Source: Thermoleophilaceae bacterium (GTDB taxonomy: Bacteria > Actinomycetota > Thermoleophilia > Solirubrobacterales > Thermoleophilaceae). Taken from it: a stretch of 39,028 bases of DNA. The translations under genes were made by a program, and so were the position numbers. Of this stretch, positions 27,909 through 32,353 are shown piece after piece. The number at the start of each line of letters is the position of its first letter. The first letter of the stretch is position 1. The DNA is taken from the NCBI GenBank assembly GCA_025928345.1, contig JAICJR010000007.1:1-39028 (forward strand). Direction: 5' to 3'. Below the pieces are notes generated by a model. The model did no database searches. It was not told the DNA's origin and saw nothing but the letters and a program-made list of their open reading frames with translations.

Positions 27909-28045
27909 CGCGTCGCACGGTAGCAACGTTCGCGGACGGATGTAACCGTGCGGCGCGGCAGATTTCCCTGCAATTTCCGGGATGAGTAGGGGGTACGGAG
28001 TAAGGAGTAGGGAGAGAGCTTCACGACGCGGGGGCTTAGTCAGCC
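27909..28045. other. Intergenic region left of the four-helix-bundle gene
   Basis: 137 bases. The right half is heptamer array d (27984-28018); the left part shows no clear site. A possible promoter for the four-helix-bundle gene must be short. Confidence 0.3.
27984..28018 (+). repeat. GAG-N4 heptamer array d (left of four-helix-bundle gene)
   Basis: Five heptamers: GAGTAGG, GGGTACG, GAGTAAG, GAGTAGG, GAGAGAG. The gene begins 28 bases after the array. Array e beyond the gene has the same unit in opposite orientation. Confidence 0.8.
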
Positions 28046-28390
28046 ATGGCTCGCAGCAAGTTCCGCGACCTGCATGTCTATCGCTTGGCCGTTGCCCTCG
28101 CCGACGATCTGTACAGCCGGATCGCGCGCTGGCCCGTGCTCGCGCGGCACACCTTCGGTGAGCAGCTCGTTCGCGCCGCGGATTCAGTGGGCGCGAATAT
28201 CGCGGAGGCCGTCGGAAGGGGCCATACACCCGATAAACGGCGACTGCTCTACATCGCAAGGGGCTCGCTCTACGAGACTGAGCATTGGATCATCCGAGCC
28301 GAGCGACGCGGCCTCCTCGAGCTCGGCACGAGCGCCCGCGCCGAAGAGATTGCACGGGCACTGAATGGCCTTATCAGGAATCCGGGCTAG
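28046..28390 (+). CDS. Four-helix-bundle protein (S23/IVP family, TIGR02436-like)
   Basis: A 114-residue helical protein: FRDLHVYRLAVALADDLYSRI, HTFGEQLVRAADSVGANIAEAVGRG, KRRLLYIARGSLYETEHWIIRAERRG and a last helix. This is the four-helix-bundle family first seen encoded in 23S rRNA intervening sequences and related in fold to the Avd protein of diversity-generating retroelements; members are basic and pentameric and are thought to bind nucleic acid. No rRNA gene or reverse transcriptase is present here. The gene sits alone between inverted heptamer arrays d and e, in opposite orientation to both neighbouring genes. Confidence 0.88.
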   Translation: MARSKFRDLHVYRLAVALADDLYSRIARWPVLARHTFGEQLVRAADSVGANIAEAVGRGHTPDKRRLLYIARGSLYETEHWIIRAERRGLLELGTSARAEEIARALNGLIRNPG

Positions 28391-28413
28391 GTCAGCGGCC
28401 TGCGGAGAAAGGG

Positions 28414-28442
28414 CTCCCTACTCCCTACTCCCTACTCCCCTA
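28414..28442 (-). repeat. GAG-N4 heptamer array e (right of four-helix-bundle gene)
   Basis: Plus strand CTCCCTA x3 then CTCCCCTA; on the minus strand GAGTAGG units. The last unit supplies the stop codon (TAG, 28442-28440) of the adjacent cytochrome gene. With array d it forms inverted repeats around the four-helix-bundle gene. Confidence 0.82.
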
Positions 28443-28937
28443 CTGGCCGGCAACCGCAGCCACAAACTGCGCCACCGCCACCGCGTTCGGCCCCTGCAAC
28501 ACCCCTGCCGGCATTCGCCTCTGCCCCGTCCCCCCGATACGGATCGCGCTCTCGATCCGCTTCACCGAGGCGGCGGTGTTGCTCAGTCCGATGCGGTCGA
28601 GGTCGGGGCCGGTGACGCCGCGGGCGTTCACCGCGGCGAGGGTGTGGCAGCTCGCGCAGGTCTGCCGGAAGAGCGTCTTGCCCTTCTGAAGCGAGCTCGA
28701 GGCGGACTTCGTCTGGAGCTTCGAGGTGGCGCCCTGGGCGTCGTGGCGGGCGCTCAGGATGATCGCGGGCACGGCGAGGCCGACGCCGAGGTAGATCACG
28801 ATCATCGAAATCTGGAAGAAGCGGCTGCCGCGCGTGAGATAGGCCTGACGGGCGCCGGCGCCGCCGCCGTGGAAGGCGACGAAGATGACACCGATCCCCA
28901 CCAGGATCCATGGAACGAGAAAGAACCAGACGGTCAT
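28440..28937 (-). CDS. Membrane-anchored c-type cytochrome
   Basis: A 165-residue protein: two N-terminal membrane segments (about residues 3-22 and 42-62) and a C-terminal class I cytochrome c domain with heme-binding CASCH at 94-98 and a likely Met ligand in RRMPAGVL (about 143). It would carry electrons on the outer face of the membrane, perhaps to a terminal oxidase, but its partner is not in the window. The stop codon lies in heptamer array e, so the C-terminal residues after the Met-ligand region may have been changed by the array. ATG at 28937. Confidence 0.88.
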   Translation of the reverse strand: MTVWFFLVPWILVGIGVIFVAFHGGGAGARQAYLTRGSRFFQISMIVIYLGVGLAVPAIILSARHDAQGATSKLQTKSASSSLQKGKTLFRQTCASCHTLAAVNARGVTGPDLDRIGLSNTAASVKRIESAIRIGGTGQRRMPAGVLQGPNAVAVAQFVAAVAGQ

Positions 28938-31540: not shown

Positions 31541-32353
31541 TTAGCCGCGCAGAAGGCCGGAACCTGCGTACACGTTCAGCGAGCCGTCGCGCACGAAGCC
31601 GCACAGCAGCATGCCGCGCTCGCGCGCCAGATCGACCGCGAGGGTCGAGGGCGGACCGACCGCCACGAGGCCGATCAGGGAGGCGAGGCTCGCTTTCTGC
31701 ACCAGCTCGAACGACGCGCGCCCGCTCACCGCCGCGAAAACGCCCTCGAGCGGGAAGCGCCCGGCGAGCAGGAGCGATCCGATCGCCTTGTCCATCGCGT
31801 TGTGCCGGCCGACGTCCTCGCGCACCACGAGCAGGGTGCCGTCGGCCTCGAACAGGCCCGTGGCGTGGAGCCCGCCGGTGCGGTCGAAAGCGAGTTGCCT
31901 GCTACGCACTGCGTCAGGGGCGCTGAGTACGACTTCGGCTCGGAGGTCGGAGGTCGGAGGTCGGAGGTCTGGAGCTTTCTGTGTCACGAATTCGAGGGCT
32001 CCCTTGCCGCAGACGCCGCAGGAGGAGGTGAGGTAGAAGCTGCGCTCGTCCTTCGGGTCCCGGCGCAGGCCGTTCTTCGTGCGCACGTCCACGGTGTTCG
32101 CGGCGAAGTCGCGGGTCGGGCCGACATCGGCAATGTCCTCGCGCCCTGCGATCAGGCCTTCGCCGGCGAGGAAGCCGGCGGCCAGCTCCTCGTCTTCGCC
32201 CGGAGTGCGCATCGTCACGGCGAGCGGCTCGCCGTCCACGCGGATCTCGAGCGGCTCCTCCACGGCGAGCTCGTCGCGCATCCCCTCGCGGACGCCTTTG
32301 TGGAGCTTCTCGATGGACGCCGCGGCTACGTGCGGGTCGAACCCCGTGGACAT
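31541..32353 (-). CDS. fdhD: FdhD sulfurtransferase for formate dehydrogenase
   Basis: A 270-residue FdhD homologue, which passes sulfur from a cysteine desulfurase to the molybdenum cofactor of formate dehydrogenase. Visible are the CxxC of SSCGVCGKG that carries the sulfur, [41 protein letters not shown] and [13 protein letters not shown]. Array f (31941-31974) adds an in-frame [14 protein letters not shown] insertion after the CxxC region. The ATG overlaps the stop of the ArsR-type gene (TGATG). No formate dehydrogenase gene is in the window; upstream, the cox genes are the other molybdoenzyme system. Confidence 0.93.
31941..31974 (+). repeat. GAG-N4 heptamer array f (inside fdhD)
   Basis: GAGGTCG repeated three times, then GAGGTCT and a GGAG remnant. 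On the coding (minus) strand it encodes the same DLRPPT hexapeptide as array b in coxE. The unit is identical to that of arrays b and c. Confidence 0.8.

Follow-up and report, generated by a model that had tools for sequence, protein, structure and literature searches.

A structure of an S23/IVP protein has been available since 2006. The S23p proteins encoded by rRNA intervening sequences (IVS) have no known function, the Xanthomonas homologue is a pentamer, and the element of this family located in the Coxiella 23S rRNA is excised by RNase III (PMC4990558). Besides these proteins, tandem repeats with a 7-bp unit have been described in several bacterial groups, including GGGAATC and GGGGAYT in Xanthomonas and Nostoc, with 70 and 75 convergent heptamer pairs in two Xanthomonas genomes and no general association with mobile elements (PMC4692102), and TAACTGA in Beggiatoaceae and Cyanobacteria (PMC4679880). 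Neither of these two studies mentions S23 or a four-helix protein. Finally, REPINs are doublets of REP sequences mobilised in trans by a Y1 transposase (PMC3116915, PMC2817692).

Here, we have analysed a stretch of 39,028 nucleotides (the window) from the genome of a Thermoleophilaceae bacterium (G000). A first-pass annotation of this window had reported inverted heptamer arrays around an S23/IVP gene, and both its coordinates and its description proved right when checked with TRF and the PF05635 and TIGR02436 profiles. The element and its context are composed as follows:

27984-28014, plus strand: upstream tandem array, about 4.4 copies of GAGTAGG with the variants GAGTAAG and GGGTACG (TRF)
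28046-28390, plus strand: gene of an S23/IVP four-helix-bundle protein of 114 amino acids (PF05635, TIGR02436)
28402-28412, no strand assigned: subterminal stretch GCGGAGAAAGG adjoining the array (direct comparison with gene-less elements)
28414-28444, minus strand: downstream tandem array, GAGTAGG inverted, about 4.3 copies read as CTCCCTA (TRF)
28440-28937, minus strand: neighbouring putative c-type cytochrome ORF (context only)

The downstream array matches the upstream one in inverted orientation with a score of 20, and GCGGAGAAAGG is common to the right ends of gene-less elements, as GCGGAGAAAGGCGC in L035 and GCGGAGAGCGCG in L045. The downstream array had also been described as supplying the stop codon of the cytochrome gene, as if the unit had been placed there. 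The overlap is real, the TAG stop being located at 28440-28442 (minus strand), but an identical CTA/TAG occurs in the same-genus relative G001, where the orthologous site has no array (CCCTACCGGCC); the array therefore did not create this stop, and the idea that its insertion did so was rejected. Elsewhere in the window, TCGGAGG/GGAGGCC period-7 arrays are found at 1901-1926, 2770-2801 and 31940-31974 with no S23/IVP gene adjoining, and represent a further heptamer family in this genome, while a short CGAGTTT period-7 array occupies 1596-1620. The window also contains a c-di-AMP riboswitch (RF00379, 10940-11083, minus strand, 78 bits, Rfam).

Regarding the protein, it matches PF05635 (23S_rRNA_IVP; E 3.6e-23, 82.2 bits for a curated cut-off of 33.8) and TIGR02436 (80.9 bits, cut-off 24). 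It is predicted to adopt the four-helix-bundle fold, its AlphaFold2 monomer model (pLDDT 94.9) being closest to 2gsc, which is XCC0516 of Xanthomonas campestris (TM 0.88), and then to 2rld, which is BT_0352 (TM 0.77). The kinship in fold with Avd of retroelements that had been put forward from the sequence is borne out by the model, Avd (4dwl, TM 0.71) being a more distant fold relative, and a PDB sequence search returned no sequence-level match to Avd. No nuclease or transferase domain was recognised in the protein by profile searches. A polar core (Y12, S47, N51, E54, R58, R72, S74, E77) is strongly conserved across IVP proteins, which are, as judged from substitution ratios, under purifying selection: dN/dS is 0.11 between the window protein and its closest relative L003, and ranges from 0.04 to 0.31 in the seven IVP pairs that gave a value.

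The gene-array arrangement of the window element is no local oddity. We surveyed 80 loci from a genome collection (Cyanobacteria, Acidobacteriota, Planctomycetota, Chloroflexota, Thermoleophilia and others), a sample ranked by similarity to the query and drawn from mostly incomplete genomes, along with 30 loci from a phylum-wide search and family-level loci, leading to 116 independent loci once 3 duplicates were removed. Aligning the 300 bp upstream with the reverse complement of the 300 bp downstream, 103 of the 116 IVP loci reached an inverted-repeat score of 12 or more, compared with 6 of 199 control ORFs from the same loci. Under a strict definition, period-7 arrays on both sides of TIGR02436-type genes, which the first-pass annotation had proposed to look for, were found at 78 of the 116 loci and in many phyla, against none of 464 random stretches from the same loci, and any other period accounts for at most 4 of the 116. 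The two-unit GAGTAGG pattern has, by pattern search in a genome about 88% complete, 66 matches in G000 and none when read backwards; together with the both-sided arrays (78/116 versus 0/464), this excludes chance. The proposal that gene and arrays form one unit thus withstood the comparison which could have overturned it (103/116 and 78/116 versus 0/464), and we regard the unit, as well as the generality of the association, as almost certain.

Among family-level relatives, all seven IVP copies are bracketed by arrays, with units of the GAGTAGG, GAGTTGCG, GGTGGAC, GGTGACT, GGGCATA, CAGCCCA and GCCCGCG types, and the window's own genome contains a second IVP gene, also between inverted arrays, with a different unit and a period of 8. 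Clear inverted arrays were missing at 9 of the 30 phylum-wide loci and at 2 of the 6 plasmid loci; the other four plasmid members have inverted repeats across the gene, 3 of them as clear heptamer arrays. The IVP locus of Nostoc edaphicum plasmid pNe_5 has the window's own heptamer, even though the identity of its protein to the query used is as low as 31%. No IVP relative was confirmed in IMG/VR viral contigs. Plasmid copies sit in operons (cas6/cas4, cas10/cmr3 and nrdB/nrdA); three cyanobacterial plasmids (L233, L234, L236) have four-helix-bundle genes within cas operons, in cas10-cmr3 and cas6-cas4 gaps, heptamer arrays being present in the flanks of two.

Such a location within operons is one of the arguments for a post-transcriptional element, in which, by analogy with rRNA intervening sequences, the arrays would form an RNA stem cut out by RNase III and the IVP protein would protect or process the RNA. 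The RNase III-excised Coxiella element has the same protein family and the same layout, and the predicted RNA fold of the window unit is more stable than shuffled sequences (z -3.1) with the outer arrays paired. However, the order of unit variants is not matched between the two arms of a pair, which means that no exact complementarity is imposed on the arms, many arrays stand alone, and Rfam finds no rRNA family in the window. We thus consider RNA processing a very unlikely account of these elements.

Support for a relation between protein and repeats comes from 91 loci where both flanks have period-7 arrays. Here, unit similarity is 0.80 for the two arms of a locus, 0.555 for different loci and 0.458 for arms matched in direct orientation, and it follows protein similarity with a Mantel r of 0.61, the maximum of 2000 permutations being 0.24. 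Part of this correlation is due to common descent of neighbouring loci. Host composition alone is insufficient to explain it, since G001 has four IVP genes with four units, two of which match the two genes of G000. As unit and protein co-vary, the repeat-handling role initially suggested for the IVP protein appears plausible at the level of sequence. The variation within arrays is concentrated in one position of the unit, which could result from duplication as well as from selection. The same two features would fit a site-binding protein, the IVP being a regulator, an RNA-binding or a chromosome-structuring protein, the arrays its sites, those around its own gene autoregulatory, and their spread a matter of replication slippage and recombination and not of the IVP: unit and protein would co-vary, and the other positions of the unit look as if constrained. 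Autoregulation, however, needs no two convergent arrays tightly around the gene.

The arrays are not restricted to IVP genes but dispersed in the genomes. By pattern search, GAGTAGG has 66 and 32 matches in the two genomes whose IVP gene it flanks, and no more than 3 in any of 29 relatives; GGTGACT has 51 where an IVP has this unit, 14 in the congener of that genome and at most 2 elsewhere; for GGTGGAC, the genome with the matching IVP has 90, G019 has 40 and the others have background numbers. Arrays on opposite strands at most 300 bp apart are convergent in 43 of 43 cases (counted from the listed positions). In G000, twelve convergent pairs besides the window were inspected, eleven spanning 46-213 bp and one 1107 bp. 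Some pairs have a common interior of 110-210 bp, reminiscent of MITEs, at non-orthologous sites: the interior GCAGCAATAA...TTATTGCTGC, or parts of it, is common to L035, L042-L045 and others, and a GCGGAGA-type stretch adjoining the array is common to several gene-less pairs and to the gene-bearing window unit.

Other pairs are more unusual. The 1107-bp GAGTAGG pair (L031, G000:C59, about 957-2063) encloses no IVP but an ORF for a putative GntR-like regulator, named from its sequence, and an overlapping reverse-strand ORF; at the same site in G001, only 145 bp separate the arrays. L171 (G001:C50, 1052-1114) is a hybrid with GAGTAGG in its left arm and another unit, AGTCACC, in its right arm. 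In G001, the GGTGACT arrays of L178-L180 and L182-L184 are single, with no partner arm, some of them apparently in coding linkers rich in simple sequence. The correspondence between dispersed arrays and genes also has exceptions. In the G383 family, ATTCGYR is rare in G383 outside its own IVP unit and plentiful in genomes such as G391 (105 matches), yet the only IVP detected in the latter has another unit; the rule that dispersed arrays occur only beside a present cognate IVP fails in this family. G019 and G000, both incomplete genomes, contain many arrays of a unit for which no cognate gene was detected.

The mobility suspected in the first-pass annotation finds support in duplicated units and in the MITE-like derivatives. 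L228 and L229, in one genome, are gene-bearing units 94% identical over 460 bp, the identity ending at the arrays and the flanks being unrelated; L212, from another genome, is likewise 95% identical to L229 over about 460 bp, again ending at the arrays and with unrelated flanks. It had also been proposed to search relatives for an empty site. At the window site, G001 retains both flanks (84-85% identical) and has neither gene nor arrays, as this proposal anticipated, but its 133-bp allele, which contains a hairpin and a possible right-end remnant, is not a perfectly clean empty site. Among 12 further G000 element sites compared with G001, both flanks were located at 10 and a single one for L030 and L039. 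Eight of these ten sites have arrays in G000 as well as in G001, in degenerate form at L043, often with different interiors (1107 versus 145 bp at L031, 64 bp versus a MITE-like interior at L041, 189 versus 97 bp at L045); at L032 and L036, the arrays are missing from G001, which has about 1 kb of unrelated DNA instead. Since arrays are in both genomes at 8 of the 11 located sites, window included, most insertions predate the species split. Elements thus seem to come and go while the cargo between the arrays turns over. None of the G000 element sites provided a perfectly clean empty site in G001, no target-site duplication was seen at the compared sites, where the arrays obscure the ends, and no parent transposon was found for the MITE-like elements. 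Altogether, the mobility of the unit has good support, and we think it likely.

These comparisons bear on two rival explanations. The retention of arrays between two species at 8 of 11 sites is a further point for the site-binding protein, which nevertheless has to face the duplication of entire units to unrelated loci and the interiors common to non-orthologous sites, which resemble copied elements; we hold it to be unlikely. Alternatively, the arrays could have come first, as ordinary simple-sequence repeats into which IVP genes insert or between which they recombine, the cargo being swapped by homologous recombination. Orthologous pairs with different interiors in G000 and G001 (L031, L041, L045), the GntR-like ORF occupying the place of an IVP in L031 and the two different units of the L171 hybrid are what such a scenario would produce. 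It leaves unexplained, however, why the unit tracks the protein sequence, why IVPs of one genome have different units and why the arrays are nearly absent from relatives without an IVP, which makes it quite unlikely in our view.

With a mobile unit as the preferred reading, the question arises of what moves it. The organisation resembles that of REPINs and RAYTs and the protein model resembles Avd (4dwl, TM 0.71), pointing to a known enzyme, either a REP-associated Y1 transposase or a retroelement using an Avd-like IVP. Y1_Tnp (PF01797) has no match in G000, G001, G003 and G019, and no RVT_1 reverse transcriptase was found in six IVP genomes; both movers were rejected on this ground, and spreading by a known enzyme, already contradicted unless the missing genome parts hold it, is extremely improbable.

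Because the S23/IVP gene is bracketed by arrays in many phyla and copies of the repeats are scattered in the genomes, it looks like the gene of very small elements, mobile or repeat-spreading, that form a class not recognised so far. In the model we propose, the element consists of a single S23/IVP gene with a convergent array on either side, made of a short unit that is 7 bp long in nearly all cases, and this element and its gene-less derivatives (array pairs enclosing a short or MITE-like interior, and lone arrays) are scattered over the genome as REPINs are around a RAYT gene. An oligomer of the IVP protein would recognise the heptamer register of its own arrays, in folded single-stranded DNA, in RNA or in duplex; this recognition would maintain the arrays and might allow new array pairs to be copied elsewhere with replication and repair enzymes of the host, which we propose because neither a Y1 transposase nor a reverse transcriptase was found. 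Taken by itself, the idea that the IVP protein is the spreading factor appears to us evenly balanced. The overall picture, namely widespread tiny elements with an S23/IVP gene between convergent arrays, whose array pairs spread with the help of the protein, is one toward which we lean.

Such a system would merge two puzzles, the function of S23/IVP proteins and the way in which 7-bp repeats are made and maintained in so many bacterial genomes. Were the protein to drive the spread of the arrays, the unit would be a minimal selfish element, about 460 bp long and relying on a new principle of mobility, with a sequence-specific code between protein and repeat that could be deciphered from hundreds of natural pairs. 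Even if IVP proteins only bind the arrays, the function of a large family of 'unknown' proteins becomes directly testable.

We found no publication joining heptamer arrays to the S23/IVP family, in a literature search that excluded bioRxiv preprints and most subscription journals, and we regard the system as new since this search came back empty and the elements did not group with IVS, RAYTs or Avd when membership of each was tested. The 23S rRNA IVS of Coxiella is similar in its protein family, its size (428 nt versus about 460 bp here), its complementary ends and its patchy distribution (PMC4990558), but the window unit is not located in an rRNA gene, has heptamer-array ends and is accompanied by dispersed gene-less derivatives. 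Avd (4dwl, 8ub7) has the four-helix-bundle fold in common (TM about 0.7), in contrast with the lack of a reverse transcriptase in the six IVP genomes and of a sequence-level match in the PDB. MITEs are likewise short and dispersed, with inverted ends and a common interior, whereas the present elements end in tandem heptamers, with no parent transposon found and no target-site duplication seen. The closest likeness in organisation is with REPINs and RAYTs, whose short sequences are likewise dispersed between genes in convergent pairs, potentially folding into hairpins, and also flank a gene, with a repeat that co-varies with the protein (the G383 family being an exception here); the differences are a four-helix bundle of the S23/IVP family instead of a Y1 transposase, and tandem heptamer arrays instead of single palindromes. 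We read the 460-bp stretch of the window as one member of a widespread REPIN-like class of elements built on a four-helix-bundle protein. The heptamer repeats of Xanthomonas and Nostoc and the TAACTGA repeats are, as here, intergenic and dispersed 7-bp tandem arrays, and X. campestris, whose genus hosts such repeats, also encodes the IVP homologue XCC0516 (2gsc). It is possible, if somewhat less likely than not, that S23/IVP provides the only gene of a distinct class of mobile or repeat-propagating elements, with tandem heptamer arrays as ends, specific recognition of their own unit and a spread that relies on no known transposase or reverse transcriptase; many of the enigmatic heptamer repeats of cyanobacteria, xanthomonads and further bacteria would then be their products, and the rRNA IVS a side branch settled in 23S rRNA.
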